IMG/VR virus record: IMGVR_UViG_3300014914_000003
Span: 1-64,000 of that record
From: a virus
DNA: 64,000 bases
Strand: one strand, 5' to 3'
A model generated the notes under the pieces. That model saw only the letters and a program-made list of their open reading frames with translations. It had not been told where the DNA came from and ran no database searches. The number at the start of each line of letters is the position of its first letter. Position 1 is the first letter of the stretch. A program made the translations under genes and the position numbers. Shown here in pieces: positions 31,055-56,902 of this stretch.

Positions 31055-31521
31055 CAGCAAGGCGTCAACCACAAAGCGAAAAGCATCCGTATGCATCCCC
31101 GACAACTCCGGGGTTGTATGTGGCATTCCGCGACTACATCATCGAGCTAGTGTGTCTCAACACCAATCCCAAGATCGGTCCACGGTTTTGGTCTGATCAA
31201 AGCTACTGGTCACCGAAATACAGGAGAGAGGTGCGAGGGGTCGCGAATCTCGGCGCAGAACTCGATCTCACCGACACCCTGACACAAACGGCATTGGTCC
31301 AGATCATCAAGGAATATCGCATCAAAGCGCTTGTCGCAAAGAAAACCAAAGAGAGGGTGGTGCGATTCACTCGGCGAAGAAGACAGCACCTAGTAGAACA
31401 ACGGGCGTCGTTGGCCACAACACAACCGGTAGCACCCATCGACACAAAGAAGAACTCCACGTTCGTAGACACTGGTGAAAAGAACACTTTGGCAAAGATA
31501 AGGGAAGCAGAGAATGGCTAA
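31051..31521 (+). CDS. Hypothetical basic protein, 156 aa
   Basis: ATGA-coupled to the previous gene. Basic with a cluster RVVRFTRRRRQH near residue 105 and a polar C-terminus. Aromatic pair FWSDQSYWSPKYRREV in the middle. No known domain. It overlaps recA by eight bases, so it is translated with it and may be a recombination accessory, but that is only positional. Confidence 0.55.
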   Translation: MTARRQPQSEKHPYASPTTPGLYVAFRDYIIELVCLNTNPKIGPRFWSDQSYWSPKYRREVRGVANLGAELDLTDTLTQTALVQIIKEYRIKALVAKKTKERVVRFTRRRRQHLVEQRASLATTQPVAPIDTKKNSTFVDTGEKNTLAKIREAENG

Positions 31522-35113: not shown

Positions 35114-35691
35114 GTCCAATAGAGTATATTGCGGAAGGCATACGACAAGGGAACTGGGAAACTGTTTGTGAAGGATATGAACGGCTCACTGGCAAAGCCT
35201 TGCCACTTCCGACCACAATGGCTACAACAGACGGCGCTGGAGATGCACTCCGACAGATTGCAGATATTGCATCTTCTGTTTTAGATGGACCGACAGCAGA
35301 GATTTGTGACACGGCCAAAAAACCAGTGAAGAAAAAGCCCGGTCGCCCGAAGGGGGGTGGGAAAAAGAAAAAGAAGAAGAAAGCCACGGTAAACAAAAAC
35401 GGTGAGGATTCTTCCATCCAGATAGATGAAGACAAAAGGACCATCGTACAAAAGGAAACTGGTGGCACCCAGTTAATCACCAACGACGCAGACCCAGAAG
35501 AGGTGGAACGCAACAAGGCTAAGGCAGCAAAAGCAAACAAGAACAAGGTGAAGCTAAATCGCCAAGCTGCCAGAAAGTACAAAGTCAAGTGCAACGAATG
35601 CGGAGAGACATTCGAGTCTGATCGCAAGGGCGGTGAGATGGGTCAAAAGTGTCCGGGTTGTCTCAAGGAAAAGAAGAGTAGGTTCGCTTAA
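35110..35691 (+). CDS. AT-hook and zinc-ribbon protein, 193 aa
   Basis: A short helical N-terminus (IEYIAEGIRQGNWETVCEGY) precedes a Lys-rich segment with an AT-hook-like KKPGRPKGGGKKKKKKK (residues ~75-91) and a C-terminal zinc ribbon (CNECGETF, then KCPGCL). Predicted to bind DNA, in the minor groove of AT-rich tracts through the GRP core. It lies directly upstream of the DnaB gene (TAATG overlap), so a role as a replication accessory is plausible. No full-length family recognised. Confidence 0.65.
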   Translation: MSPIEYIAEGIRQGNWETVCEGYERLTGKALPLPTTMATTDGAGDALRQIADIASSVLDGPTAEICDTAKKPVKKKPGRPKGGGKKKKKKKATVNKNGEDSSIQIDEDKRTIVQKETGGTQLITNDADPEEVERNKAKAAKANKNKVKLNRQAARKYKVKCNECGETFESDRKGGEMGQKCPGCLKEKKSRFA

Positions 35692-40924: not shown

Positions 40925-43900
40925 ATGAGCAAGACATATGTACCACTTCATGTCCACAGCTTCTATAGCCTGTTGGACGGACTCTGTTCGCCCAAGGATA
41001 TTGTTGCTAGGTGCGCAGAGCTTGGCATACCTGCATGTGCGATGACAGATCATGGCAATATCGCTGGCATGAAGGTGTTCTACGATGCTGCCAAAAAGAA
41101 AAAGGTCAAACCAATTATTGGGTGTTGTTTGCCAGGACAGGAGATAATAACTGATCGTGGTGTTAAAAAGATACAAGATATCTCAACCAAAGATATGGTA
41201 TTGACGCACAAAGGTCGATACAGGAGAGTTGTAAGCACGATGAGTCGTTATGTATCTACGACAATCTATGGATTCGACACATGGGGCGGAAGAAAAATAT
41301 GGACGACGGATGAGCATCCACTTTTAGTCCGGACATCTGAAGATGGTTTTGTTGCCAAGAACAGTTGGGTAAGAGCAGATTCAATACAACACGGAAGACA
41401 CAACAGCAACAAAAGGCTAAGATGGAAAAGTTATTTGACGATGCCCGTACATGAGAGTTCTATCCCCCTGGTAGATGCTGTGCAACTTTTAACTGATAAC
41501 GGATATGATGATCGTTATGAAGTTGTTGATGACCGTATATTCAAGATTTGCAGCAAGACAAATTCACAAGACACATGTATGGGAAAACCGTTTGATTTTC
41601 CCTGTTTTCAAATAGACGATGATTTAGCATTTTTTATTGGGACGTTCGTAGCAGAAGGTTCGTTTCAAGAATCAAAAAATGGACCACACTCTGGAATACT
41701 GACTTTTCATATCGACGAACGCGACCTGTCTCTTAGGTGTAGGCAAGCACTAAGATCACTAAAAATTGAAACCATAGAAACACTTAGGCCAGACAAAACC
41801 ACAAGAGAGCTTCATTTTCACCACAGTATATTCTGTCGTATTTTGAAATGCCTAGTGGGTTCTGGGGCAAAGACAAAGAAACTTCATCCAATATTGATGC
41901 AACAATCTCCCCATATCACCAAGTGTTTCCTGAGAGGTCTTCTGGCAGGTGACGGTGCAAAAAGAACTGATGGGTCGCAAATACTGAAATTGGCCAATGA
42001 AACTTTAATATGGCAAACAAGAACATTGTTGAGTAAATTTGGTTATACATCTCGGATAACTAAATCAAAAGCTGATAACAAGCAGGCCTGGACTATCCAA
42101 TGGAGATGGTCATCAGAAGGATATACAGATAGCGACAACCGATATGTGTATCTACCTATTAAAAACATAGAGACAAAACATTATGATGGCCCTGTTTTCA
42201 ACTTCGAGGTAGAAGAAGATCATTCTTATGTGAGTGACGTTATACTTCATAACTGCGAGATGTATATTTGTGAGCAGGAAGCCGATGTCAAAAATACCAG
42301 CAACAATAAGCGAAACCACTTGATAGTTCTCGCCAAGAATGATCAAGGTATCAAAGACTTAATGGGTTTGGTAAGTGAATCGAACAGGCCAGATTACTTC
42401 TATCGTAAGCCTCGTATCCATCTGGCGGGTATCGCCCCCTTCGCAAAACGTGGTAATCTGATATTCCTGACTGCATGTATTGCGGGCGAACTGCCTATGT
42501 CACTGTTTTCCGATTTTCGCGCAGCAATTATGGGTGGAAGAAACGGCCATGCTGACGGTGCCAGAGAATATCTGCGACCAAATTGGAAAGATGTCGGCAA
42601 GGCTATTATTCACAAACACATAGCTACTTTTGGTAAAGATAACTATTATCTCGAACTCCAGAATACCGGCATGGGCATTCAGGCATTAGTGGTTGAGTGC
42701 TTAAGAGAACTCAGTGAAGAAACAGGTGTACCAACAGTTGCGACCATCGACGCCCATTATTGTCGCAAGCAAGAAGCTGAAGACCAGAGACTTCTACTAT
42801 ACGCGCAACTCCACACCACGAAAGAAGAGCAAGAGCGGAAGCTACAGCAGACCGGCGATGTCATGGACTTCATGATATCGGATAAATACTACATCCCGTC
42901 CTACGACGAGATGAGAAAGCATTTCACAGAGGCCGAACTTCAAACGACCCTGGACATCGCAGCACAGATCGAGTATTCATCGTTGGGCCACAATCCGTAT
43001 CTACCAATTTTCACCAATGATGAATCAAAGTCTCTCAAACTTGACTCTAACGAGTACCTAAGACACCTCTGCATCGAGGGGGCAAAAGCCAAGCTGACAC
43101 ATCTGAAACCAGCACAGAAGAAGGTGTACTGGGCTCGACTACAGAGAGAGCTTATCGTTATCCAAGAGGCTGGATTGGCCGACTACTTTCTGATTGTATG
43201 GGATGCGTGCCGATTCGTTGATGAGAAAAATGGACCACGAGGGAAGGGGCGCGGTTCTGGCGCTGGCTCGTTGGTCAATTATCTGACAGGAATCACGGGG
43301 ATTGATCCAATCGAGTACGGATTGTATTTCGAACGATTCTACAACATGAGTCGTAACATTCCTCCACACTTTGATGTAGGGCAAGTTGATTTCATGTCGT
43401 GGATGTCCGACAACTTCGAGCTACTACATACCAGAGACATAGACGAAGAACGCAAGGCGGTGGCTGCGCACCTAGCAAGACGGATGAAGCAGCGTAGGGT
43501 TGAATTCACAGATATGATGAGGGAAGAGGTCGAGTGGATTGACAAGAAGAATCCACGTATGTGGATGTACCTGTACGACATGATCCAGGATAAGCCAGCG
43601 GAAAATCCTGCCAATTCACACTTGGCGTATGGGCTTGGTGCGACACTCGCTGGTCGTGACGAACTGGATGTGAAACGCAAGGTCAAGACTCATGATGGTC
43701 ACGTCAGTCTGCCTGATATCGATACGGATATTGGAGTTGTGTTCAGGAGTGAGGTAATCGCATACCTCAAAGAGAGATGGGGCGAAGAATATGTCGCACA
43801 GATGATCACGTTCGGACGCCTTCAGGGGAAGGCGGCACTCAAGGAAGTGTTCCGCGCACATCCCGATACAGTAAAGCATCTCATGAAGGTCAAGGCTCTC

Positions 43901-44395
43901 AAGGAAGGTAAAGATGCCGACGATATCTGTATGACACCCCACGATCTGTGCAATGAGATCACACAGCACATCCCCGATGAAGCGACAATCGCAGACGAGT
44001 TGAGACAGGCGAGGGCTGAGCAAGGGGACGACTATGGTATTCTTCAGTGGGCAGTCCACAATGTTGAGCAGGTCCAATCTGCGTATGAATGGTTCAAACC
44101 GCTGTTCGATCAAGCCATGCGGATCGAGGGGACTAAGAAGTCTCAGTCGAAGCACGCTGCTGGTGTGGTGATAGCAGACAGACCTATCGCAGAATTGACT
44201 CCTCTTGCCTATGACGCAAAAAACAAGGACCGCGTGGTGGGGCTGGAGATGTGCAACGCTGAAGACATGGGCGCTGTTAAGTTTGACTTCTTAGGAGTCG
44301 TAGCCCTTGACAAGCTCTGGAAAGCGCAGGACTTGATCAACGGATGCGGTGAGGAAGAGGTCTTGGAAGAGGGGTTAGTGAATGTCCCAGACTGA
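40925..44395 (+). CDS. dnaE: DNA polymerase III alpha, N-terminal half (DnaE-N) with intein
   Basis: The 1156-residue precursor splices to ~780 residues. PHP domain: LHVHSFYSLLDGLCSP, AMTDHGNIAGM. Palm: PRGKGRGSGAGSLVNYL, the two catalytic Asp in LPDIDTDIG, MITFGRLQGKAALKEVFR, SKHAAGVVIA, and the third Asp in VKFDFLG. The chain stops at VNVPD soon after, exactly where normal DnaE continues into the IPLDDP-type segment, which begins the separate gene at 51,514. So catalytic residues are complete here and the rest is on another polypeptide. ATG 40925 follows GTGGAGGCGTAAG. The intein is in the PHP domain. Confidence 0.92.
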   Translation: MSKTYVPLHVHSFYSLLDGLCSPKDIVARCAELGIPACAMTDHGNIAGMKVFYDAAKKKKVKPIIGCCLPGQEIITDRGVKKIQDISTKDMVLTHKGRYRRVVSTMSRYVSTTIYGFDTWGGRKIWTTDEHPLLVRTSEDGFVAKNSWVRADSIQHGRHNSNKRLRWKSYLTMPVHESSIPLVDAVQLLTDNGYDDRYEVVDDRIFKICSKTNSQDTCMGKPFDFPCFQIDDDLAFFIGTFVAEGSFQESKNGPHSGILTFHIDERDLSLRCRQALRSLKIETIETLRPDKTTRELHFHHSIFCRILKCLVGSGAKTKKLHPILMQQSPHITKCFLRGLLAGDGAKRTDGSQILKLANETLIWQTRTLLSKFGYTSRITKSKADNKQAWTIQWRWSSEGYTDSDNRYVYLPIKNIETKHYDGPVFNFEVEEDHSYVSDVILHNCEMYICEQEADVKNTSNNKRNHLIVLAKNDQGIKDLMGLVSESNRPDYFYRKPRIHLAGIAPFAKRGNLIFLTACIAGELPMSLFSDFRAAIMGGRNGHADGAREYLRPNWKDVGKAIIHKHIATFGKDNYYLELQNTGMGIQALVVECLRELSEETGVPTVATIDAHYCRKQEAEDQRLLLYAQLHTTKEEQERKLQQTGDVMDFMISDKYYIPSYDEMRKHFTEAELQTTLDIAAQIEYSSLGHNPYLPIFTNDESKSLKLDSNEYLRHLCIEGAKAKLTHLKPAQKKVYWARLQRELIVIQEAGLADYFLIVWDACRFVDEKNGPRGKGRGSGAGSLVNYLTGITGIDPIEYGLYFERFYNMSRNIPPHFDVGQVDFMSWMSDNFELLHTRDIDEERKAVAAHLARRMKQRRVEFTDMMREEVEWIDKKNPRMWMYLYDMIQDKPAENPANSHLAYGLGATLAGRDELDVKRKVKTHDGHVSLPDIDTDIGVVFRSEVIAYLKERWGEEYVAQMITFGRLQGKAALKEVFRAHPDTVKHLMKVKALKEGKDADDICMTPHDLCNEITQHIPDEATIADELRQARAEQGDDYGILQWAVHNVEQVQSAYEWFKPLFDQAMRIEGTKKSQSKHAAGVVIADRPIAELTPLAYDAKNKDRVVGLEMCNAEDMGAVKFDFLGVVALDKLWKAQDLINGCGEEEVLEEGLVNVPD
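41126..42253 (+). mobile_element. DnaE-N (PHP) intein (376 aa, LAGLIDADG)
   Basis: Starts CLPGQEIITDRG, block B TTDEHPLLV, endonuclease motifs FFIGTFVAEG and LRGLLAGDGA, ends VILHN before CEMYI. Two Cys codons precede LPG (41123 and 41126). If splicing used the first, the extein would read PIIGCEMY, the usual DnaE sequence; the second gives an extra Cys. The exact first residue is therefore uncertain. Confidence 0.9.
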
Positions 44396-44756
44396 TTATG
44401 CGGCACATATCAAGACTGTCTTCTGTGACCTAGATGGTTGTGTCTTCAAGCATCATGGAGACATCGCAGAGATACTGGCCAACCCGTGTGAACTGTTACC
44501 TGGGGCAAAGGATTCGTTCAAGAAATGGGGGCACAAAGGGTACACGGTTATCCTGACCACTGGCAGACCAGAGAGTATGCGAAGCATTACTGAACAACAA
44601 GTCCGTGACGCAGGTTTGTATTACCACCACCTGATCATGGACTTGCCACGGGGGCAGCGAGTCGTGATCAACGACGTAAAGCCCGGGAGAAAAGCCGATA
44701 CCGCTGCGTGCGTGAACGTTGAAAGAAACAAGGGGATGGAAAATGTTGACATCTAA
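44382..44756 (+). CDS. HAD-superfamily phosphatase
   Basis: 124 residues. Motif I VFCDLDGCVF (DxD nucleophile and acid), motif II ILTTGRPE and a downstream VVINDVKPG with an acidic residue. The small size (no cap domain) is like KdsC-type sugar phosphatases or the phosphatase part of polynucleotide kinases. Being first in a sugar-activation operon favours a sugar phosphate substrate. It starts 14 bases before the end of DnaE-N. Confidence 0.72.
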   Translation: MSQTDYAAHIKTVFCDLDGCVFKHHGDIAEILANPCELLPGAKDSFKKWGHKGYTVILTTGRPESMRSITEQQVRDAGLYYHHLIMDLPRGQRVVINDVKPGRKADTAACVNVERNKGMENVDI

Positions 44757-45762
44757 TCTCGCTTGTGGGCCGATGAGCAGAGAAATCATCGAAGCTGTTT
44801 TCCGCCATTCGCACAAGTTTGGGGCGCAGTTGATGCTGATATGCTCTCGCAATCAAGTAGACGCTAACAGTGGATACGTGTTCACGACATCGGAGTACGT
44901 AGAGTATCTGGCAAGGCTCAAAAGAGCTTATCCCCAAGCGGACGTAGTAATCTGCCGCGATCATTGTGGCCCAGGCTTCGGCACCACACCAGAAAGCGAC
45001 CTTGGCGAAACCAGGAAAACAATCCGCTGCGACCTGGAACATGGCTTCGACCTTATCCACATCGACCTTTGCCACGCGAAGATGTCCCACGACGAGAAGC
45101 TTCGTAACACAGCAGAACTGATGCGGTTCGCTCTAGAGATCAAACCAGATGTGATGTTCGAAATAGGCACCGACGAGAACGTAGGGGTCACCGAGACAGA
45201 TGTTGCAAGGATCGTTACCGACATCCAGGCATGTCAGAAAGTGGCCGACCCTGTCTTTTACGTCGTGCAAACTGGAAGCCTCGTGCGAGAGGCGTACAAC
45301 GCTGGTTCTTTCGACACCAACAGCGTAAGGGCGATGCACGCAGCATTAGCCGGGTGTGGGGTCAAACTCAAAGAACACAACGCTGATTACCTGGATACTC
45401 GACAGATCACCGCCCGCAAGGGTATTGTGGATGCTGTGAACATAGCCCCGCAACTCGGTGTAATACAGACAAGCTATCTGTTATCGCAAGCTTTGGTGTA
45501 CGGAATCAGCACGCAGCCATTCATTGACGAGGTGATACAGGGGGATAGGTGGCGCAAGTGGGTTGACCCCTCTGGTAATCCACAGCGGATGTTGTTTGTT
45601 CTCGTTGCCGGTCACTACCACTTCAACGGATCAGCCTACCAACAACTGGTAGATGAACTTGCCCTAAAGATCAACGTCAAAGAGGGTATTCTTGGTGAGA
45701 TCACAAAGGTCATCGAACATTACCTGTTTTCGTTGGAGGGATGCTATGCAGATCATCAATAA
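44743..45762 (+). CDS. GatZ/KbaZ-like TIM-barrel protein
   Basis: 339 residues. LMLICSRNQVDANSGYVFTT, VVICRDHCGPGFG, CDLEHGFDLIHIDLCHAKMS and FEIGTDENVGVTE resemble the D-tagatose-bisphosphate aldolase non-catalytic subunit family (GatZ/KbaZ), TIM barrels acting on or stabilising sugar bisphosphate aldolases. No GatY/KbaY-type catalytic partner is nearby, so it may be a distinct sugar-phosphate enzyme. ATG 44743 follows AGGGGATGGAAA. The gene overlaps its neighbours on both sides within an HAD-barrel-cupin-nucleotidyltransferase operon. Confidence 0.65.
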   Translation: MLTSNLACGPMSREIIEAVFRHSHKFGAQLMLICSRNQVDANSGYVFTTSEYVEYLARLKRAYPQADVVICRDHCGPGFGTTPESDLGETRKTIRCDLEHGFDLIHIDLCHAKMSHDEKLRNTAELMRFALEIKPDVMFEIGTDENVGVTETDVARIVTDIQACQKVADPVFYVVQTGSLVREAYNAGSFDTNSVRAMHAALAGCGVKLKEHNADYLDTRQITARKGIVDAVNIAPQLGVIQTSYLLSQALVYGISTQPFIDEVIQGDRWRKWVDPSGNPQRMLFVLVAGHYHFNGSAYQQLVDELALKINVKEGILGEITKVIEHYLFSLEGCYADHQ

Positions 45763-46072
45763 GCCATGGGGCAAAGAAGAGATCCTGGCTGTGCAGGACA
45801 AGTATGTGGTCAAGAGATTGCACATGACCAAAGGAAAGAGATGTAGTCTACAGTATCATGAGCACAAAACAGAAACGATATATGTGTTGAGCGGCGTGTT
45901 GCTATTACACCTGGACGGTCAAGTTATCACAATGAGGCCGGGCGACTTTCGCACCATCGTCCCAGGTGAAGTACATCGCATGGAGGGCGGGGAGGACGCT
46001 ATATACCTGGAGTCTTCAACAACCGAACTAGACGACGTTGTACGTGTGGAAGATGATTATGGGCGAGAGTAG
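45746..46072 (+). CDS. Cupin, mannose-6-phosphate isomerase type II-like
   Basis: 108 residues. KPWGKEEILA at the start, then KGKRCSLQYHEHKTETIYVL (HxH...E metal ligands), LSGVLLLHLDG, MRPGDFRTIVPGEVHRM (second His). This is the cupin found as the C-terminal part of bifunctional mannose-6-phosphate isomerase / GDP-mannose pyrophosphorylase enzymes. Alone it is a candidate sugar-phosphate isomerase or epimerase. ATG 45746 has GGAGGGATGCT upstream. Confidence 0.78.
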   Translation: MQIINKPWGKEEILAVQDKYVVKRLHMTKGKRCSLQYHEHKTETIYVLSGVLLLHLDGQVITMRPGDFRTIVPGEVHRMEGGEDAIYLESSTTELDDVVRVEDDYGRE

Positions 46073-47636
46073 GAAATACAAAGTATTGATTCCAACGGCT
46101 GGTGTTGGTTCTCGACTGGGCGACCATTGTGACCATGTCAATAAGACATTGGTTCCAGTGGCAAACCGTCCAATCATTTCGCACATCATCGAGAAGTTCC
46201 CGCCAGACGTAGAATTGATCATTGACCTGGGGCACAAAGGGGAACTGGTCAAAGAGTTTCTGACCCTGGCATACCCAGATCGCAATTTCACATTCATCTG
46301 GGCTAACAGGAAGGGGTTGACAGCGGACCTATGTGATTACCGGGACATCCTACAGTGCCCGTTTATCTTTTTCACGAACGACGCCATCGTGACAGAGAAC
46401 ATACCGGAACCAGATCGTGACTGGATAGGGTATGCAAACATTCGTGCTGGACATGATTATCGATCTGTTGTAGCAGATTCATGGGACTGTACGGTCGTCA
46501 AAGCTTTAGGCGAGAAGGGTGCCCACACAGAAGCCCAGGCATACATCGGGATTTGTGGCATTAACGACTACAAGGCGTTTTGGGCATCTATGGACAAAGC
46601 CATGACAGATGGCACGACGAGCCAGGGAGAATCGTTTGCCCTAGCTGAAATGGTTTCAAGCAGGCCGGTCAAAGGTTATGCGTTTACGTGGTATGATACG
46701 GGAACAGTTGAAGCACTCGCGCACGCCAACAAGGTTTTCGGGAAGGAAGATGATCCCAACATTCTGCCGAAAGCCCAGGAGCATATATGGTTTTGTAACG
46801 ATCGTGTGATCAAGTTTTCAACAGACAGAGATTTTATCACACAACGAGTCGAAAGGGCAAAGTCGCTTGCTGGGTATGTTCCGGCTATTGAGGGCAGCAC
46901 GCCGAACATGTATTGCTATAAGATGATCGAAGGAAAAGTGTTGTCAAATACGATCACAATGTCTCGATTCAAAGAATTCTTAGCATGGCTAGAAGGGCTG
47001 TGGGGAGATCGTCAACTACTGACAGCCGAAGTGAGAGAGGTCTATCGTAGGTTCTATCAAGACAAAACCCTCAAGCGAGTACAAGCGTACTTCGATCGTT
47101 TTGGCTATCAAGATTCCGAACAATGTATCAACGGCGTAGATGTGCCATCTGTGGCAGAACTGTTAGATCGTGTTGATTGGGCGTGGATATCCGAGGGGAT
47201 TCCAGTTCGCTTCCATGGAGACCTACATCCCGAGAACACTCTCGACACAGGTGGTGGTTTCAGTCTATTGGACTGGCGACAGAATTTCGGTGGGATGAGT
47301 GATTATGGAGATGTTTACTACGATCTAGCAAAGCTGTGGCACGGTATGATTGTGTCGCACGGAATTATCCACAAGGGACTTTACGAGATTGACATTGACG
47401 GGACTGTAGTCAACTTCGATTTACTAAGGCGGCAGATTCTCATCGATTGCGAAACATGGTTGCAACAATACCTGATCCGACATCATTATGATTGCCACAA
47501 AGTAAAGGTACTGACATCGCTCATCTATCTCAACATCGCAACCCTGCACCATCAGCCATATGCCGAAATGCTGTTCCATCTTGGAAAATCAATGTTGTCA
47601 AACTTACTAGAGTCTCATGGTGAAACCGAAGTTTAA
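46059..47636 (+). CDS. Sugar nucleotidyltransferase fused to a phosphotransferase
   Basis: About 525 residues. N-terminal ~230 residues: nucleotidyltransferase fold with VLIPTAGVGSRLG, NKTLVPVANRPIISHII and FFTNDAIV. C-terminal ~290 residues: an aminoglycoside/choline-kinase-like phosphotransferase with RFHGDLHPEN (catalytic loop) and LLDWRQNFGG, YYDLAKLW. The pairing could phosphorylate a sugar or amino alcohol and activate it to an NDP derivative, as in LicA/LicC-type or capsule pathways. Starts 46038, 46053 and 46059 are in frame; 46059 was chosen for GGAAG spacing. Overlaps the cupin gene. Confidence 0.78.
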   Translation: MGESRKYKVLIPTAGVGSRLGDHCDHVNKTLVPVANRPIISHIIEKFPPDVELIIDLGHKGELVKEFLTLAYPDRNFTFIWANRKGLTADLCDYRDILQCPFIFFTNDAIVTENIPEPDRDWIGYANIRAGHDYRSVVADSWDCTVVKALGEKGAHTEAQAYIGICGINDYKAFWASMDKAMTDGTTSQGESFALAEMVSSRPVKGYAFTWYDTGTVEALAHANKVFGKEDDPNILPKAQEHIWFCNDRVIKFSTDRDFITQRVERAKSLAGYVPAIEGSTPNMYCYKMIEGKVLSNTITMSRFKEFLAWLEGLWGDRQLLTAEVREVYRRFYQDKTLKRVQAYFDRFGYQDSEQCINGVDVPSVAELLDRVDWAWISEGIPVRFHGDLHPENTLDTGGGFSLLDWRQNFGGMSDYGDVYYDLAKLWHGMIVSHGIIHKGLYEIDIDGTVVNFDLLRRQILIDCETWLQQYLIRHHYDCHKVKVLTSLIYLNIATLHHQPYAEMLFHLGKSMLSNLLESHGETEV

Positions 47637-47645
47637 GAAAGGCAG

Positions 47646-48218
47646 ATGGGCATGATTTACTCTAGTTTGCAACATGGACTTACCTTACTTGATAGCAGGT
47701 ACAAGCACGTTCTAGAGTTTGGTGTATGTCGTGGAGATACCATCCGTGTTATACGACAAACACTGGATGCTTCATTTTCAGTTTTCGGATTCGACTCGTT
47801 CGTTGGACTGCCGGAAGCCTGGGTGGACAAGCATGGAGCAGTGGTTGTCCCGCCAGAATACTTCTCAACCAATGGTGTTATACCCGATGTCCCAAATGTG
47901 AAATTCTATGCTGGGTGGTTTTCGGATACGTTGCCTAAACATCTTCCAATCGCCGAACCAATAGCGTTGCTTCACGTAGATTCAGACCTCTATAGCTCTG
48001 CCAAAGAGGTGTTGTGGGCACTGAATGACCACATCGTTGCCGGAACAATCATCGTATTCGATGAATGGTTCTATAAACATGACGCTCAATACGACGACCA
48101 CGAACAACGAGCGTTCAATGAGTGGGTACTGGCATTTAACAGAAAATTTGAGATTATATGTTTCAAAGACGAAACTCCGTCTGGGGAGGAAAGAAGGATA
48201 GTGAGGATTTTGGATTAA
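47646..48218 (+). CDS. TylF/MycF-like SAM methyltransferase
   Basis: 190 residues. VLEFGVCRGDTIRVI (SAM-binding loop), FGFDSFVGLPE, ALLHVDSDLYSSAKEVLWAL and IIVFDEWF match macrocin O-methyltransferase-like (TylF) enzymes that methylate sugars. It probably decorates the glycan assembled by the neighbouring glycosyltransferases. RBS AGAAAGGCAG before ATG 47646. An HNH gene begins immediately after its stop. Confidence 0.8.
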   Translation: MGMIYSSLQHGLTLLDSRYKHVLEFGVCRGDTIRVIRQTLDASFSVFGFDSFVGLPEAWVDKHGAVVVPPEYFSTNGVIPDVPNVKFYAGWFSDTLPKHLPIAEPIALLHVDSDLYSSAKEVLWALNDHIVAGTIIVFDEWFYKHDAQYDDHEQRAFNEWVLAFNRKFEIICFKDETPSGEERRIVRILD

Positions 48219-48833
48219 ATGGTGAACTTAACCGGTCAAAAATTTGGGAAATTAACCGCCATATCGATCTCCCATAAAGATAAACGCCTTGGGGCATTTT
48301 GGATTTGCCTATGTGATTGTGGGCGCAATACGGTAGTTTATAGAGGACACCTCAAATCGGGGCATACAAAAAGCTGTGGATGTTTGTGGTCAAAGCATGG
48401 ACATACGACAGGTTATGAAAGGACAAAAGCATACTATACTTGGGTCTCCATGAGACAAAGATGTGATAATCCAAGCAACGGAGTTTACGGGAACTACGGT
48501 GGGCGAGGAATAAAAGTTTGCAGTAGGTGGATGATATTTGAAAATTTTTTAGAGGATATGGGAGAATCTCCGACAGGTTTACAGCTAGACAGAATAGACA
48601 ACGATGGTGATTACTGCAAAGAAAATTGTAGATGGGTTACCCCCGAACAGAACTCAAGAAACAAACGAGACAATCGTTTTCTTACCTTAAATGGAGAGAC
48701 AAAATGTGTGGCAGAATGGGCTGAAGAATTATGTATTAACTCCCAGACATTGTATGTAAGATTGTTTCGGGGATGGTCAGCAGAGAAAGCCCTAACGACA
48801 CCAGCAAAAACAAAGAAAGGAAAATCATGCTAA
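48219..48833 (+). CDS. CxC-type HNH homing endonuclease, intact copy
   Basis: 204 residues and the only full-length copy of this type in the window. Order: NLTGQKFGKLTAISIS, WICLCDCGRN and KSCGCLWSKHGHTTGY (zinc-like CxC and SCGC), RTKAYYTWVSMRQRC, NYGGRGIKVC, HNH core LDRIDNDGDYCKENCRWVTP, then FLTLNGETKCVAEWAEELC and SAEKALTTPAK. It serves as the reference for six broken relatives in the window. The start abuts the methyltransferase stop. AT-rich. Confidence 0.88.
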   Translation: MVNLTGQKFGKLTAISISHKDKRLGAFWICLCDCGRNTVVYRGHLKSGHTKSCGCLWSKHGHTTGYERTKAYYTWVSMRQRCDNPSNGVYGNYGGRGIKVCSRWMIFENFLEDMGESPTGLQLDRIDNDGDYCKENCRWVTPEQNSRNKRDNRFLTLNGETKCVAEWAEELCINSQTLYVRLFRGWSAEKALTTPAKTKKGKSC

Positions 48834-49672
48834 GAGTGGCTTTGTGTTTGAGCGGTATGGCGTTGCACCCCGGCAAAAAAGTCGTGGGTGGTCAGATGTG
48901 GAACGGCAAGACAGGAAAGAGGACACCGGTCGAATGGCGTAAAGGTCTAGAGCACTACCAGAGACATATGTTCGCCCATAACGACGTAGATGTGTTCATG
49001 CATACGCCGAGCCTAGCCGCAGAACAAGAGCTAAGAGATGCCTACAAGCCAAAGGCTGCGATATTCGAACCTGACCCAAAGTTCAACATTGCTGGAGCCA
49101 AGGTTGATAAGGACTACCCAGATGGCATTACCTCAAAAACCCAGATAACAATCGCCAGATGGTACAGCATACAGAAGTGTATGCAACTCAAGAAACAGTA
49201 CGAAAAGGCACAAGGATTCAAATACGACATGGTGATGATTGGCCGCTTTGATGTTGCATGGATGGTAGATGTGCATTTTGACCAGTTCGACCCAAACCAT
49301 TTCTATGCGTCCAACTGGTGTGTTATGAAGCTTCCTAACGGCCAGGGTATCAGGCACGAAGATTGGTTCCTGCACGGATGGGACAAAAAGGACAACGCCA
49401 ATCTACAACATGTTCATCTGGGATACCCCCATACACCTCACTATCAAGCACTCGCTGACTACTGGTTTTTCGGAGGAACCGAATTGATGGACAGGTTCGG
49501 CGACCTATACGACAACATAGGCAATTTTCTCAGGGCCGGTGTGCCGTCTAATCATGAATTTGCACTCAAACAATTGAGAACTACAGGACTTCTGCCAAAA
49601 CTGAAGTTCGCTTTTCACATTCATGACGATTGTTTCTTAGCCCGTTTCGTGTACTGCGATTGGAGGAAATAA
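48827..49672 (+). CDS. Putative glycosyltransferase-like protein, 281 aa
   Basis: MLRVALCLSGMALHPG opening, RWYSIQKCMQLKKQYEKAQG and YDMVMIGRFDVAW (a YDxVxxxRxD pattern) are seen in poorly described glycan-synthesis proteins of phages and bacteria. No DxD pocket can be assigned with certainty (FDVAWMVDV is a candidate). It sits in a row of glycan genes between an HNH gene and an HNH remnant. ATG 48827 overlaps the HNH stop. Fold and activity are inferred from context. Confidence 0.55.
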   Translation: MLRVALCLSGMALHPGKKVVGGQMWNGKTGKRTPVEWRKGLEHYQRHMFAHNDVDVFMHTPSLAAEQELRDAYKPKAAIFEPDPKFNIAGAKVDKDYPDGITSKTQITIARWYSIQKCMQLKKQYEKAQGFKYDMVMIGRFDVAWMVDVHFDQFDPNHFYASNWCVMKLPNGQGIRHEDWFLHGWDKKDNANLQHVHLGYPHTPHYQALADYWFFGGTELMDRFGDLYDNIGNFLRAGVPSNHEFALKQLRTTGLLPKLKFAFHIHDDCFLARFVYCDWRK

Positions 49673-49673
49673 G

Positions 49674-49727
49674 ATGAGCCGCGTGTTCTTAGACGTAGGT
49701 GCCCACCATGGGCAGACAAAACAGTAG
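49674..49727 (+). pseudogene. FkbM-like methyltransferase, first 17 codons only
   Basis: ATG after TGGAGGAAATAAG, then MSRVFLDVGAHHGQT, the characteristic start of FkbM-family methyltransferases (FLDVGANxGQT), and a stop two codons later where HNH-derived sequence begins. The rest of the gene is gone. The intact RBS and start suggest a real gene was destroyed by an HNH element insertion followed by deletion. Confidence 0.6.
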
Positions 49728-49890
49728 AAATAAACGTAATAATCACCTAGTTGCATTTAACGAAAAGATTCAATGCATTGCTGCTTGGGCTGAGGAAACC
49801 GGAATCCCCTATCACACCATTTATCGAAGAATATATAAGTTGAACTGGTCTCCGGAAAGAGCCTTAACACTACCTACGAAAAAGGAATGA
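49714..49890 (+). pseudogene. CxC-type HNH remnant, C-terminal module only
   Basis: NSRNKRNNHLVAFNEKIQCI, AAWAEETGIPYHTIYRRI and SPERALTLPTKKE correspond to the last ~60 residues of the gene at 48,219 (NSRNKRDNRFLTLNGETKCV ... SAEKALTTPAK). The N-terminal and catalytic parts are absent. It is joined to the truncated FkbM-like start. It still forms an open frame from GTG 49699. Confidence 0.75.
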
Positions 49891-49893
49891 AAA

Positions 49894-50640
49894 ATGAAAG
49901 CTAAAATTTGGCAATTTTGGGACAATCCACCTGGACACACAGAGCCTCCTGCATACATACAGTTGTGCCAAGAAACTGTACGTAAGCACTGTAGTGCAGA
50001 TTTTGATATATGTTTAGTAACCACAGAAAATGTTAAACAATTTTTACCAGATATCTCTGATTCTTTTTTCGAAATATCACAAATTAACAACAAGTCTAAT
50101 TACCTAAGATACACGTTACTGAAAGAATCTGGGGGCATATGGCTGGATGCAGATTTAATTCTGTTCAAAAGTCTGAAGCCGCTGCTTGAACTACTTACAG
50201 AAGAAATAGATTTGGTAGCCACGGCCTCTCCCACTCTTAGATATGGAGAACCGGAGTGTGGGATTTTAGTATCCAAAAAGAATGGTGCAGTAATAACCAA
50301 AGCTGTTTCTATAATAGAATATGCGTTAAGTCTCAGGGAACCTGGACACGTTTTCAAATGGGGTTCTCTGGGACCAGAGACCATACGACAAGCAGTAAAG
50401 GGAAAGAGGTACTGCCACATGGAGCACCCACTTATCATGCCTATCCCGTCCTGGGAGGCATATCGCTTCGCCGGGAAGGATTCAATAGACAAGTATTGTA
50501 ACGACGCATCATTTGGAATAATGTTGTTCCATCAGATGTTTCGACAATGCAACAGTCCTTTCTTAACTATGGGCCGACAAGAGTTATTGGACAGCCCAAC
50601 ACTGTTAGGACAAATGTTCAGAAAGGCAGTAAGTAGTTAA
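49894..50640 (+). CDS. GT32-like glycosyltransferase
   Basis: 248 residues. AKIWQFWDNPPGHTEPP at the start and SNYLRYTLLKESGGIWLDADLI (DxD metal motif) are typical of family GT32 / capsular polysaccharide synthesis sugar transferases. The gene is AT-rich along its length, unlike the next one, and directly follows the HNH remnant, so it may have come in or been converted with that element. RBS AAAAAGGAATGAAA. Confidence 0.82.
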   Translation: MKAKIWQFWDNPPGHTEPPAYIQLCQETVRKHCSADFDICLVTTENVKQFLPDISDSFFEISQINNKSNYLRYTLLKESGGIWLDADLILFKSLKPLLELLTEEIDLVATASPTLRYGEPECGILVSKKNGAVITKAVSIIEYALSLREPGHVFKWGSLGPETIRQAVKGKRYCHMEHPLIMPIPSWEAYRFAGKDSIDKYCNDASFGIMLFHQMFRQCNSPFLTMGRQELLDSPTLLGQMFRKAVSS

Positions 50641-51473
50641 TGGCTACTCCTAGCGAAAACAAGATGTGTTTCATGACAGTGGCCAATCGACCGTATCAAA
50701 AATACGTCCCATGGTTCTTGTATTTCCTGAACAGGGCTTACCCAGAGGCGCACAAGCTGGTCTTACTTGACGGAGCTATGGCTGACAACGTTCGTCAGAT
50801 GCTCACTTTGCTGTCTGGCAATTTCGAGGTACGCGAGCGAGCGTTCCCGGAATATACCCACACGGACGCAAATACCATCAAGTGTCTGAGATGGCTCGTC
50901 TACGAACCGGCGTTCGAGCAATACGACTGTATGTCAATCGGTGATGTTGATATGGCGACCTATGTAGAGACCCCACCGTATATGGATCAACATCTCGCAC
51001 ATTGTGACCAGTTGGGAATCCCGTACAGTAATTTCGTCAGACCGCCCAATGCCGGGCCAAGGCGCATGAGTGGAATACACGTCATCAAACCAAGAGAGTG
51101 GTTCGCTACAATGAGGCCGATAATAGACAAGTACCGTCCAATGCTCAAGGCTGGCAAGATCAGTCTCCCAGAACAGGGATTCAACGAACAGCTTTTGCTA
51201 CGAATGATCATCGAGTCTGATCTTGGCGAGCCGCCAGCCAACTTGTTCGACACCTACTGGCCCTCTCTGGCAACATCAAACCATCATGGGACACATATCC
51301 GTCTGGCAGAATGTGGCGGGATCAGAGGGCTTCAGGGTGCCAAGGGATATCGGACCCATAAGCCAGAGGTTCTGGCTGCTGTCAAGACACCGCTGTTCAG
51401 CCAATTATCGGCCATGTCGCCTCAAATCGGCGGTATGCTGCAAGCGATAGCCAGGGCGTACAAAAATTTCTGA
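50640..51473 (+). CDS. Putative GT-A glycosyltransferase, 277 aa
   Basis: MCFMTVANRPYQKYVPWFLYF opening, a LVLLDGAM strand and SIGDVDMATYVE (candidate DxD), SGIHVIKPREWF and EQGFNEQLLL match the layout of GT-A fold transferases. TAATG overlap with the GT32 gene. GC-rich compared with it. Promoter copy 5 follows 6 bases after its stop and reads into DnaE-C, so this gene closes the sugar module. Confidence 0.65.
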   Translation: MATPSENKMCFMTVANRPYQKYVPWFLYFLNRAYPEAHKLVLLDGAMADNVRQMLTLLSGNFEVRERAFPEYTHTDANTIKCLRWLVYEPAFEQYDCMSIGDVDMATYVETPPYMDQHLAHCDQLGIPYSNFVRPPNAGPRRMSGIHVIKPREWFATMRPIIDKYRPMLKAGKISLPEQGFNEQLLLRMIIESDLGEPPANLFDTYWPSLATSNHHGTHIRLAECGGIRGLQGAKGYRTHKPEVLAAVKTPLFSQLSAMSPQIGGMLQAIARAYKNF

Positions 51474-51478
51474 TTTTG

Positions 51479-51508
51479 TGGAACAACAAGCCGACTTAGA
51501 GGTATAAT
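51479..51508 (+). promoter_or_regulatory. Recurrent phage promoter motif, copy 5
   Basis: TGGAAC at 51479-51484, 18-base spacer, TATAAT at 51503-51508, then GGAGT and ATG 51514. The start codon is five bases after the -10 hexamer, so the DnaE-C message would be leaderless. It gives the second polymerase half its own promoter, distinct from the operon carrying DnaE-N. Confidence 0.65.
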
Positions 51509-51513
51509 GGAGT

Positions 51514-54500
51514 ATGATTGAGTTCACCAATTGCAAATGCAATGTAGAGAAGGGTAAATTTAGTATCAACGATATCCCTCTCGATTGTCCTGCCGCATGG
51601 CGACTCGTTTCGGGTGGTCACACGGTTGGGGTGTTCCAACTTGAGAAGAGCCTTGGTCAAGATTGGGCCAAAAAAGTACGACCTAGCAATATTGAAGAAT
51701 TGGCTGCTTTGGTAAGTTTACTACGACCCGGACCCCTTGAGGCAGGATTAAGTCAAGATTATGTAGATATTAAATTTGGAAAGAAAAAAATCTCCTATCT
51801 ACATCCATCTTTGAAGCCCATATTAGAATCAACATATGGCCAAATGATATACCAAGAACAAGCTTTGCGTATCGCCACCGATATAGCTGGATTTAGTCCA
51901 GAAAATGCAGATGAATTAAGAAAATGTGTCACTAAAGACACTTTGTTCTTGTCTAAACAAAGGGGTTGGGTTTCCATCGATACGTTAATAAAAACTGGAT
52001 ATGACAAAGATTTATTTTTAACTATGAATTCTCAAGGAATCAAACAATGGAAAAAAATCTCTTCGATATGGTCAAACGGAATTAAGACCACCAGAACCGT
52101 CGAATCCAGAACTGGTTTAAGCATTAACACAACTAAGCATCATCAATTTTTGACATCCAGTGGCTGGAAAGCTAGAAGACGACTAAATAATAATAGTTAT
52201 CTGATTACGACAAAATGTGTTAATTATGACGGCATAGATGTTATTTCACCAGAGATGGCAATCATTGTTGCTGGAATCGTAGCAGAAGGATATTTCACTA
52301 AAAACACGAGCAGAACTTTTACCATGTTTGATAAAGGAATGATGGATCGTTTCTGTCAGTGCTTTGAAAAGGAATTTAAGGAATTGCCCAGTATGTCCAG
52401 TGCCAAGGGTATTGCTAACAGGGTTGCCAGAATAAGAGACAAACATGCACATAAATTACATAAATACGTAGGATATGCTTTGTCTGCAAATAAAAAATTA
52501 CCTGAAATAATGATGGGCATGACCGTAGAAAGTACCAGAAAATTTCTTTCATATTTATTGGTATGTGACGGTGGTGTCAGTAAAAATTCAAAACAATTTA
52601 CATATACATCAAAATCTAAAAAATTAGCCCAACAGATACAACTTCTACTTTTGAGATTCGGTATTAGATCAACAATCAATCCAAAAAATGTAAAAAATTA
52701 TGGAATTTATTATGTGTTATCTGTTTGCGATTTTGGTTGTCAACAAAAATTGCAACAAGAACTTACATGTGAATGGCCAGATAATAAAAAAGAAGCACTA
52801 CAAAGTATCTTAAACAACAAGAGACAAGAACAATTTACAATAGATATTATACCAAATGAACTGGTAATCAAAATGCTTGATCAATATCCATTTGTTGCAA
52901 ACAACGAAAGTGGAACAGCTTGGACTTCTAATATTTCTAGAAATAGGTTTTTGAAAATGTCAAATCAAACCAATGATCAATATTGGATAAATATTGCACA
53001 AAATGAACAATTTTATGATCAAGTCAAATCTATTGATCAAAAGTCTGTTGTTGAGGTTTTCGATTTTTCTATGGAAGATACTAACATACCGTACATAGTA
53101 GCAAATGGGATAGTAATACACAATAGTATCGGGAAAAAGAAGCCCGAACTCATGGCAAAGCTCAAGGACAAGTTCGTCAAGGGTGCCCAGTCGCACGGGA
53201 AAATCGCTCGCAGCGTAGCAGAGGAAATCTTTGGATGGATCGAGAAGTGCCAGCGTTATAGCTTTAATAAATGTGTGTCTGGGAAAACAATAATCCGTCG
53301 TGGAGCAAAAGGCAAACATCTCAAAACAGATGGCTATACTGTAGAGCATATGTATAGAATTAAAAATAGTATCCAATATGCCAAAAAACATGGACATGAA
53401 TCTCTAAGACGCAAATGGAATCGTCTTGGCCATTACGGTACTGGATTATCATTATGTGATGATGGTAGAATCCGTCAGAATATTATTAGAGATATACAAT
53501 CAGCAGGAATGCGCAATGTATACAAAATTACCCTAGAGAATAATGGCACGATTTCTGTTACTGCTAACCACAAGTTTCCTACTGTAGATGGTAAAAAAAC
53601 AGTGGGTCAACTATTAGTTGGAGATGAATTATATGTTTGTGGACCATATGAAGAGTCTGATTTTAATACGATAAATAGATTCAGTCAACAAAATGAATTT
53701 ACTCATAAATCATATGGTCAAAGATGTGGTTTTCCAGTAGGTAGAGACAATCCTGCTTATACGAATGGATCATATACAGATTTTCAATTATACAAAAATA
53801 GTAAACCAAATACCTGCGAACAATGTGGCAAAGAAAATTGTAGAATTGAAATAGCACATTTGAATGGAGATAGGACGAATAGCAAACCATCAAATTTGAA
53901 AAAGCTTTGCGTGTCTTGCCATAAGAAACACGATTATGTTTTAGGAAGAACTAAGCGGGGCGAAAAGGGATATCCCGCCAAGAGGGTAAAAATTATATCT
54001 ATAGAGCCAGAAGGAATAGAACATGTTTGGGATGTTACTATGGATGGACCAAATCATAATTTTACTATTGATAATGGAATCATCACTTGTAACTCACACG
54101 CTGTCAGCTACGGTATGATCGCCTATCAGACCGCATGGCTGAAGTGTCACTTCCCACATGAATTTTTCACCAGCTACCTGACGTATTCCCAATACAAGGG
54201 TGATCCCAAGGAAGAGATTTATAAACTGGTACAGGATGCCCGGCTGTTCGGTGTGGATATTCTGCCACCTGATATTCGTCGCGGCAACGTCCATTTCCAG
54301 ATGACCGAAGAACCACAAAAGGGCGTAGCATTCGGCCTGGCGCACGTCAGGGGTGTCGGAGCCTCAGCTATCGAGAAGATCGTCTCAGCGGCCTCTACAA
54401 CGCCAGGGGCGGGCTCTCTGGAGACTTGGGCCAGCTTCCTCGCAGCGGTTCCAGACTTCCATAGGAACGTAGGGATTGCTCTGATCAAATCTGGTGCTTG

Positions 54501-55383
54501 TGACTGCTACGGGATGGAGCGTAGCGAAATGGTGCGCGAGCTTGAGGTGGTTCTTGGGACTACCTCACATGACTCAACCGGCAAAAGGGTCGAGGTTAAG
54601 GGATTGACCAGTAAAGAGAGGGTATACTTTTTCGAACAGCTACAACAGGGTGCAATGACCACCCAAGAAATTCTATCCCAGATGTCCCAACCCCCAGGTG
54701 AAAAGACGAAGACCATGGGTCAAATGGTCAAGAAAGAGTTGGTCGCAGCGGCGGTGGGATATCTCGATCAGGCCGATTCGGCTTTCGACGGCATCGTGGA
54801 CGGTGACAGTAAATTCGTGTATACGTCTCCATCAGAGAAAGAGGCGTGGCTCGGAAACCTTGGGAATCGCACCAAGAAACAACTCGAAGCACTGATGGTC
54901 CAAAACGGTTACCAGGATGTGGCTGTCAAACCACCATGCTCCAATGACGCAAGACGCAATATAGTCTCAGCCAAAGCCGCGATGCTAGAACAACCCCTAA
55001 GTGATACCAATACGGCTAGCGCTGCTGCCGAAAAGTACTTCCTGGGTATTGCCTTATCGTGTTCCCCTGCTGATGATGCCAACGACACCCTGGCGACCCA
55101 TACGTGTTTGGAAATCGCTAAGGCACCGAACAACGAAGCGATTGCCGTCTGCGCTATCGTCGATGGCGTCAAGCACACAAAAACCAAGCGTGGTAGTAAC
55201 CCTGGTCAACCGATGTGCTTTCTGACGATCTCAGATTCTACGTACTCCATCGATCACGCAGTGGTTTTCCCAGATGTATTTGAACGCCTGAAGGCGTTTT
55301 GTAAGGATGACTTGATCTGTCTTGTGTATGGGCAGAAGAAAAACGGAAGTTTTATCATTCGTGACATCCAGAAGTTGATGTGA
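51514..55383 (+). CDS. dnaE: DNA polymerase III alpha, C-terminal half (DnaE-C) with two inteins
   Basis: The 1289-residue precursor splices to ~615 residues. It begins where DnaE-N ends: INDIPLDCPAAWRLVSGGHT, VGVFQLE, LRPGPLEAGL, ATDIAGFSPENADELRK|SIGKKKPELMAK, RYSFNK|SHAVSYGMIAYQTAWLK, then LLPPDI-type linker (VDILPPDIRRGNVHF), helix-hairpin region (HVRGVGASAIEKIV) and a C-terminal OB fold (VCAIVDGVKHTKT ... GSFIIRDIQKLM). No split-intein half is at its N-terminus. It must associate with DnaE-N non-covalently. Intein a is residues 138-537, intein b residues 587-860. Confidence 0.92.
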   Translation: MIEFTNCKCNVEKGKFSINDIPLDCPAAWRLVSGGHTVGVFQLEKSLGQDWAKKVRPSNIEELAALVSLLRPGPLEAGLSQDYVDIKFGKKKISYLHPSLKPILESTYGQMIYQEQALRIATDIAGFSPENADELRKCVTKDTLFLSKQRGWVSIDTLIKTGYDKDLFLTMNSQGIKQWKKISSIWSNGIKTTRTVESRTGLSINTTKHHQFLTSSGWKARRRLNNNSYLITTKCVNYDGIDVISPEMAIIVAGIVAEGYFTKNTSRTFTMFDKGMMDRFCQCFEKEFKELPSMSSAKGIANRVARIRDKHAHKLHKYVGYALSANKKLPEIMMGMTVESTRKFLSYLLVCDGGVSKNSKQFTYTSKSKKLAQQIQLLLLRFGIRSTINPKNVKNYGIYYVLSVCDFGCQQKLQQELTCEWPDNKKEALQSILNNKRQEQFTIDIIPNELVIKMLDQYPFVANNESGTAWTSNISRNRFLKMSNQTNDQYWINIAQNEQFYDQVKSIDQKSVVEVFDFSMEDTNIPYIVANGIVIHNSIGKKKPELMAKLKDKFVKGAQSHGKIARSVAEEIFGWIEKCQRYSFNKCVSGKTIIRRGAKGKHLKTDGYTVEHMYRIKNSIQYAKKHGHESLRRKWNRLGHYGTGLSLCDDGRIRQNIIRDIQSAGMRNVYKITLENNGTISVTANHKFPTVDGKKTVGQLLVGDELYVCGPYEESDFNTINRFSQQNEFTHKSYGQRCGFPVGRDNPAYTNGSYTDFQLYKNSKPNTCEQCGKENCRIEIAHLNGDRTNSKPSNLKKLCVSCHKKHDYVLGRTKRGEKGYPAKRVKIISIEPEGIEHVWDVTMDGPNHNFTIDNGIITCNSHAVSYGMIAYQTAWLKCHFPHEFFTSYLTYSQYKGDPKEEIYKLVQDARLFGVDILPPDIRRGNVHFQMTEEPQKGVAFGLAHVRGVGASAIEKIVSAASTTPGAGSLETWASFLAAVPDFHRNVGIALIKSGACDCYGMERSEMVRELEVVLGTTSHDSTGKRVEVKGLTSKERVYFFEQLQQGAMTTQEILSQMSQPPGEKTKTMGQMVKKELVAAAVGYLDQADSAFDGIVDGDSKFVYTSPSEKEAWLGNLGNRTKKQLEALMVQNGYQDVAVKPPCSNDARRNIVSAKAAMLEQPLSDTNTASAAAEKYFLGIALSCSPADDANDTLATHTCLEIAKAPNNEAIAVCAIVDGVKHTKTKRGSNPGQPMCFLTISDSTYSIDHAVVFPDVFERLKAFCKDDLICLVYGQKKNGSFIIRDIQKLM
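51925..53124 (+). mobile_element. DnaE-C intein a (400 aa, LAGLIDADG)
   Basis: Starts CVTKDTLFLSKQRGW, block B NTTKHHQFLTS, endonuclease motifs VAGIVAEGYF and SYLLVCDGGV, ends NGIVIHN before Ser. Inserted in LRK|SIGKKK. Very AT-rich, and the ~230 bases of extein just upstream are AT-rich too while the downstream extein is not, suggesting recent arrival with one-sided co-conversion. Confidence 0.9.
53272..54093 (+). mobile_element. DnaE-C intein b (274 aa, HNH-type)
   Basis: Starts CVSGKTIIRRGAKGK, block B VTANHKFPTVDG, ends IDNGIITCN before Ser; penultimate Cys rather than His. The insert domain is an HNH nuclease: CEQCGKENCRIEIAHLNG, then LCVSCHKKHDYV, not LAGLIDADG. Inserted in SFNK|SHAVS, three residues from the cyanobacterial DnaE split-intein site (Y|CFNKSH). 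Confidence 0.88.
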
Positions 55384-56314: not shown

Positions 56315-56902
56315 ATGAGTCGAAAGCAGTCGCTCAATAGGTTCATCTCTTGCTTAGCACGGAAGATTGCGACTGTTTATCCCAGCAATTGTGCTGACGA
56401 GGAAGACTATATCCAGGTCGGACACATGACACTAGCCGAGATCAGCAGGGATGAACATAACCATCGCAATTTCCGAGCCTATGCAATTGTGGCGGTGGCC
56501 AACACAATGAGGAACGCCGCCCTAGATGCGATGTGCGCCACATCGGCTCCCCGGAGAGTGAAAAAGCGTGCGCATAAGGTCGAGATGCTTTTGGCCGGTG
56601 GCTACACAGAACAGGAGATATGCAGGGAATTGAAAATCACCAGAAAGACACTTGCAAGTTTGCGATCCCTAATCAGTGCAGAATCCTGGCACATGCTGTT
56701 TCAAGAGCCCACCAAAGACTCAGAACCATTCTCTGTCTGTGAAGACCTGTTGTCGTCTAGCGGCCTGACGGAGGAAGACAGGGCGTTCATCCGAGCCCAG
56801 TTGAATGGTACTGTCGAGGAACTTGGATTGAGCAGGAAACAGAGATACTCAAAGGCCAAGAGCCTTCGCCCCAAATTGGCACGGAGTGGTTATGGAATCT
56901 GA
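56315..56902 (+). CDS. Sigma-factor-like / HTH protein
   Basis: 195 residues. CADEEDYIQVGHMTLAEI and FRAYAIVAVANTMRNAALDAM resemble sigma region 2; an HTH follows (YTEQEICRELKITRKTLASL), and a second C-terminal HTH-like stretch (TVEELGLSRKQRYSKAKSL). Resembles small phage sigma factors or terminase-small-subunit-like DNA-binding proteins; region 2 features favour the former. Second such protein after the one at 18,409. It follows ssb by 14 bases and overlaps the glycosyltransferase. Confidence 0.6.
   Translation: MSRKQSLNRFISCLARKIATVYPSNCADEEDYIQVGHMTLAEISRDEHNHRNFRAYAIVAVANTMRNAALDAMCATSAPRRVKKRAHKVEMLLAGGYTEQEICRELKITRKTLASLRSLISAESWHMLFQEPTKDSEPFSVCEDLLSSSGLTEEDRAFIRAQLNGTVEELGLSRKQRYSKAKSLRPKLARSGYGI

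Follow-up and report, generated by a model that had tools for sequence, protein, structure and literature searches.

A DnaE-type polymerase gene divided at the palm/finger boundary across a lineage of phages that appears uncultured

How a replicative polymerase could work from two separate genes is the question raised by the first 64,000 nucleotides (positions 1 to 64,000, hereafter the window) of the 160,023-base IMG/VR virus record IMGVR_UViG_3300014914_000003. The catalytic subunit of such enzymes is nearly always one chain. Here, DNA polymerase III (Pol III) alpha of the DnaE type is encoded by dnaE-N (40925..44395) and dnaE-C (51514..55383), both on the plus strand, as are all the window features given below. 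The answer favored by the comparison of relatives, and held with high confidence on sequence grounds, is an ancient gene fission that gave a two-chain C-family polymerase whose halves would associate non-covalently.

DnaE-N begins at the ATG at 40925, ends in KFDFLGVVALDKLWKAQDLINGCGEEEVLEEGLVNVPD directly before the stop, and comprises 1,156 amino acids (aa) with its intein and about 780 without it. It contains the PHP domain and the complete palm, identified by Pfam as PHP (PF02811) and DNA_pol3_alpha (PF07733, matched to its last profile position, 260). DnaE-C begins at the ATG at 51514 with MIEFTNCKCNVEKGKFSINDIPLDCP and comprises 1,289 aa with its inteins and 615 without them. It contains the fingers, HHH and a C-terminal OB-like region, with Pfam matches to DNA_pol3_finger (PF17657, from profile position 17) and HHH_6. 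In profile searches of the PDB, DnaE-N aligned to residues 6-639 of Taq Pol III alpha and DnaE-C to residues 578-908 of the E. coli protein, which places the break in the loop between the palm helix that follows the third catalytic Asp and the fingers, that is, at the palm/finger domain boundary. The halves are thus where the original prediction had put them, and its distance of 7.1 kb was measured as 7,118 bp.

Both halves are of the DnaE type: PDB chains of this type scored far above PolC, in agreement with Foldseek and Pfam. The three catalytic Asp of the palm are present in the window and in the relatives wherever this region is covered. The PHP site of DnaE-N is intact (HHDHEHCDH, a motif counted as active in PMC12926913) and identical in the window's clade. 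Profile searches of the whole 160,023-base record identified one palm and one finger domain, with no second copy of either and no full-length dnaE elsewhere. The 17 residues that follow DLIN in DnaE-N (44342..44395, including the stop) form a tail whose sequence and length vary among relatives. The palm of the window's clade also carries an insertion of about 110 residues just before the catalytic PDIDTD (DnaE-N residues ~430-550 without the intein), which is absent from undivided relatives and in which model confidence is partly low.

The same division was identified in many other records. Ten IMG/VR records at 62-90% identity were identified with the C chain as query, and further ones with the N chain. 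In every one of these close relatives long enough to judge, both halves are present and apart, and none has an undivided dnaE. Records that are nearly complete contain each half once. The spacing is 5.0 kb in locus L005, 5.1 kb in L028, 6.8 kb in L009, 8.3-8.5 kb in L003, L004 and L010, 9.1 kb in L012, 9.7 kb in L030 and about 10.6 kb in the record of L007. In L011, a 168 kb record, the N half is found close to the beginning and the C half close to the end, an order that circular permutation would produce. No record of the phage collection exceeded 60% identity to either chain; no cultured member was found and the family appears uncultured.

The wider lineage was defined as the best 80 loci of an alignment-based scan, 78 of which (L045-L122) were new. 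At least 78 further loci are divided, at 31-56% identity, and profile searches found no open reading frame (ORF) with both halves among these best 80. In L046 and L048-L122 the halves are in separate ORFs 0.6-2.1 kb apart. As a control, 90 bacterial and phage loci were compared, and N and C regions are in one ORF in 84 of them. The remaining six are two loci cut by the contig end (L174 and L194), three relatives of the window (L208-L210) and L138, which is interrupted by introns. Pseudomonas phages apparently lacking an N half in BLAST counts were rejected as further cases, the DnaE of the inspected record being undivided, 1,035 aa long and divergent at its N-terminus.

In a FastTree phylogeny of 75 taxa over 905 profile columns, the 52 divided DnaEs sampled all fall into a single clade (support 1.0, on a stem branch of 0.587), which fits one ancient fission. 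The window's clade (support 0.997) is sister to L046 (0.937) and then to L045 and L047 (1.0). Undivided phage and bacterial DnaEs fall outside the divided clade, as do three DnaEs in which PHP is apart from the palm. Both halves are under strong purifying selection, as judged from the sequences. The ratio of nonsynonymous to synonymous substitutions (dN/dS, Nei-Gojobori, from pairs with unsaturated synonymous sites) is 0.031-0.053, alike in the two halves, and 0.034 for each half in those pairs that lie closest to the window. Record by record, the halves also have similar replacement rates (0.057/0.066, 0.128/0.123, 0.116/0.124 and 0.155/0.157).

According to the favored explanation, the gene of a DnaE-type phage replicase would have undergone a single, ancient cut in the loop that connects the palm helix to the fingers, and the two genes would since have been inherited as such across a large phage lineage. 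The N chain would contribute the exonuclease site of PHP and the palm active site in full, with the fingers, HHH and the OB-like end coming from the C chain. Folded separately, the two chains would associate into one working polymerase with neither intein nor intron joining them. A working enzyme of two chains, as originally proposed, is supported by the lineage-wide fission, the purifying selection, the conserved catalytic residues and the lack of an intein half or intron at the break. The picture of a single split around a sugar module was too narrow: the split is real, but the fission is old and elsewhere in the lineage the gap mostly holds a DnaQ-like gene.

Some points weigh against this explanation. 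The single clade has FastTree support only and was sampled from the best 80 matches, so an undivided member inside it may be missed. The predicted models, made for each half separately, match Pol III alpha structures in Foldseek, at a mean predicted local distance difference test (pLDDT) of 78 for each half, which is moderate confidence. The two-chain complex, its activity and its transcript are read from sequence and none was observed; assembly and activity are inferred, as are the role of the cap at the start of DnaE-C and the order in which the gap acquired its contents.

The gap of the window is occupied by ten co-directional ORFs (44382..51473), mostly of sugar type. In order, they encode a HAD-like protein, a GatZ/aldolase-like protein, a cupin, a large protein with an APH-like C-terminal part, a TylF-like methyltransferase, an HNH endonuclease (phrog_374, 48219..48833), a DUF7796-like protein, an HNH endonuclease fragment (49699..49890), a capsule-type glycosyltransferase and a protein without family match that is nevertheless conserved in the gaps of relatives. 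Nine sugar genes had been described here; the sugar character stands, but about eight of the ten ORFs are not HNH genes, and of these eight the majority, though not every one, can be recognised as sugar genes. Across the window's clade the gap measures 5-11 kb and contains mostly sugar genes and no DnaQ-like gene; RNase_T exonucleases were absent from the eight records of this clade that were searched. Gene content differs wholly between some subgroups of close relatives while the flanks are unchanged, and the sugar cassette looks like the filling of an already existing gap.

Outside this clade the gaps are different. In L045 and L047 the halves are about 12 and 14 kb apart, with genes resembling the sugar cassette between them, and the 0.9 kb gap of L046 contains a macro-domain gene and a uracil-DNA glycosylase gene. 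Among the best 80 loci the commonest gap gene belongs to a family of 73 ORFs of DnaQ-like exonucleases; the four members tested all match RNase_T and one of them matches 'DNA polymerase exonuclease subunit'. The gap would therefore hold, on the favored explanation, a DnaQ exonuclease in most of the lineage and, in the window's subclade, sugar cassettes together with a promoter for dnaE-C.

These contents bear on how the gene came to be cut, which is a matter of origin compatible with the two-chain polymerase. A homing endonuclease inserted in the gene may have cut it, the course described for Aeh1 nrdA, and may later have been lost; this origin is regarded as possible though doubtful. Homing endonucleases split genes of T4-type phages (PMC2988022), the gap of the window contains the HNH gene and the HNH fragment, and HNH-like genes are also present in some other gaps of the wider lineage. 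However, the HNH family of the window has a homologue in the gap of only one relative in its clade, L009, and the usual gap gene of the wider lineage is the DnaQ-like exonuclease.

The PHP metal site is destroyed in one subclade of the DnaQ-bearing group, in which the palm Asp are retained. This subclade comprises L049, L080, L082-L083, L085-L090, L092-L093, L095-L104, L107-L108, L110 and L112-L122, mostly with a DnaQ-like gene between the halves. An intact PHP without RNase_T in the window's clade and the loss of PHP in a DnaQ-bearing subclade fit the proposal that either PHP or DnaQ supplies proofreading.

DnaE-C starts with an N-terminal cap (51514..51591) containing Cys-x-Cys and a further Cys (MIEFTNCKC...LDC), which was seen only in divided DnaEs. 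The pattern is MIxFxxCxCxVExGxF in the window's clade and often F-x-CGC-x-F elsewhere. CxC and a further Cys before the conserved aromatic residue are both present in 46 of 88 aligned rows; 35 have neither (two of these only because the head was not captured), six have the further Cys alone and one has CxC alone, differing only by Phe for Trp. Neither element was identified in any of 90 DnaEs not cut at the palm/finger site. Cap and intact PHP site mostly co-occur, which may reflect shared ancestry, and the losses of the two roughly coincide. The cap may stabilise the new N-terminus or the contact between palm and fingers; a metal-binding or docking role is a guess. A fuller version of the two-chain polymerase, tentative and considerably less secure than the fission itself, would be an obligate two-chain replicase in which the C chain docks via the new Cys cap (metal-binding or redox-sensitive), assembly is set by separate expression and the enzyme is mostly paired with a DnaQ encoded between the halves.

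Expression of the halves appears to be separate. The stop of dnaE-N overlaps the next gene, and dnaE-C is preceded by a promoter-like element (51480..51508) formed by GGAACA, 17 nucleotides and TATAAT, with 5 nucleotides more to the ATG. All 11 aligned clade members have TATAAT, 5 nucleotides (6 in L028) and ATG at this position, and most of them have a weak -35-like GRAACA 17 nucleotides upstream of TATAAT. At this spacing the transcript would start at the ATG, and the conserved TATAAT-N5-ATG supports the leaderless promoter that had been proposed. A scan with the consensus promoter did not list this element and gave no more sites in the window than in shuffles, so the claim rests on conservation. 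Only one other TATAAT with an ATG 3-8 nucleotides downstream is present in the window, located inside a gene. From the overlap and the promoter element, dnaE-N is probably transcribed together with the cassette and the genes upstream of it, and dnaE-C probably from a separate start.

A rival reading has the chains acting on their own during at least some of the cycle; DnaE-N, for instance, would serve as a PHP exonuclease, and the dnaE-C promoter would time the formation of the polymerase. The conservation of the promoter in the window's clade and the intact PHP site speak for such a division of labor. It is nonetheless unlikely: the conservation of the palm Asp and of the fingers is that of a polymerase, the halves change at the same rate, and loss of the PHP site does not bring loss of the palm Asp.

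The halves contain three whole inteins, which were overlooked when the absence of an intein half at the break was correctly noted. One of 376 aa with a LAGLIDADG motif (41126..42253) is in the PHP domain of DnaE-N after IIGC; it was also identified in L034 and is absent from the other relatives. DnaE-C contains one of 400 aa between ELRK and SIGKKK (51925..53124) and one of 274 aa between SFNK and SHAVSYG (53272..54093), the latter also present in L011. All three sit away from the break, and their presence varies among close relatives while the fission is constant, the record of L035 and L003 having no intein in either half; they would be ordinary inteins that must splice out in cis. The site of the 274-aa intein is presumably a few residues from the cyanobacterial split-intein site, and this site (FNKSHA), lying inside DnaE-C and carrying a whole intein, agrees with the prediction that the split is elsewhere than in cyanobacteria.

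Rejoining of the halves, by a trans-splicing split intron at the RNA level or by a cryptic split intein at the protein level, is very unlikely. The genome is rich in inteins, the C chain starts with MIEFTN/C, which bears a superficial resemblance to the end of an intein, and in cyanobacteria the parts of DnaE are rejoined by split inteins (PMC3919608). However, the ends of DnaE-N and DnaE-C at the break are too short for an intein half. The 17 residues after DLIN are too few for an N half, and the residue before the first Cys of the cap is N, K, Q or S in relatives, the Asn being unconserved. The overlap of the dnaE-N stop with the next gene also speaks against rejoining. No Rfam family was above threshold in the 64,000-nucleotide window, and a permissive search of 43900-52000 gave one weak, irrelevant match and no intron. 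A split group I or II intron flanking the break was thus rejected, the same library having detected group II introns in the bacterial dnaE of L138.

Several observations concern inteins and introns elsewhere. The record has intein matches in ribonucleotide reductase-like, RecA-like and DnaB-like helicase genes, in both DnaE halves and in a glycosyltransferase-like gene. In the window the intein-bearing genes are at 21360-25268, 31514-33787, 35691-38396, 40925-44395, 51514-55383 and 56886-60842, and further matches are near 131 kb on the minus strand (G000 130705-131811). The dnaE of Lachnospiraceae bacterium MGB1 (L138 8308-10105) contains two group II introns, one of them near the palm/finger boundary. 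In Alicyclobacillus phage MMB025 (L205 3132-7494) DnaE is in two ORFs with an endonuclease gene between them; the cut roughly coincides with the site, before SIGKKK, at which DnaE-C of the window has its first intein, and is possibly a split or interrupted intein.

The least credible reading, close to negligible, is that the halves are remnants of a gene decaying under reliance on a host polymerase, or a product of assembly error: a two-chain replicase is unusual and the record yielded no beta clamp, which makes the phage dependent on some of the host's replication parts in any case, but both halves have a dN/dS of about 0.03-0.05 and synonymous sites close to saturation, the catalytic residues are retained, and the identical arrangement in many independent metagenome assemblies practically excludes an assembly error.

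If the two-chain polymerase is real, it offers a natural test of a replicative polymerase working in pieces, through which the assembly and evolution of C-family replicases become testable, and a naturally occurring place at which to split Pol III alpha for conditional use. The fission would also mark a broad phage group, and the gap is a recurrent home for DnaQ exonucleases and sugar cassettes.

Split B-family replicases (gp43A/gp43B), the cyanobacterial split DnaE with an intein, and phage DnaEs cut elsewhere are already known. The literature covered, mostly non-subscription, yielded no description of a C-family polymerase divided between palm and fingers without an intein. Cyanobacterial DnaE is likewise encoded in two separated parts, although the window has no intein half at its break; the cyanobacterial splice site is near the SHS/FNK motif, about 180 residues downstream of the break in the window. 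Among phages, DnaE is in two ORFs in Gordonia phage Terapin (gp65/gp67), in the L015/L017/L020 group and in Staphylococcus phage RQ1. In Terapin and the L015 group, unlike the window, the cut separates PHP from the palm: in L015, L017, L019, L020, L022, L023 and Terapin (L217), PHP is in its own ORF of about 310-325 aa and palm and fingers in a second one. This PHP-apart fission falls outside the window's lineage in the tree, and both members of the Terapin pair are annotated as DNA polymerase III alpha subunit. In phage RQ1 the cut is inside the palm beside an endonuclease gene, which lies between the two DnaE ORFs (L218 4983-9906); no Rfam intron was found there. Moorella phage MTATph1 (176 kb) resembles the window in its gene neighborhood: a DnaB-like helicase is encoded close by, and the gene immediately preceding DnaE, annotated 'CRISPR/Cas system associated protein', may be compared with the PD-(D/E)XK nuclease gene that precedes dnaE-N. 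Its DnaE is undivided, in one ORF of about 1,070 aa.

The closest functional parallel is in phage 25, where gp43A and gp43B co-purify and are active as a polymerase (PMC2988022). This is a phage replicative polymerase on two genes with no described intein and a direct precedent for a two-chain phage polymerase, although gp43A/gp43B belong to the B family, of unrelated fold, and their gap contains a seg-type endonuclease or a short untranslated sequence. Split phage enzymes with separate, working chains also include NrdA of Aeromonas phage Aeh1 and the T4 topoisomerase of genes 60/39 (PMC2988022); these are other enzymes, with the endonuclease still at the break, and are found in few phages. 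The gene layout of the window, known here from its genes, fits one enzyme on two chains, as in gp43A/gp43B and NrdA.

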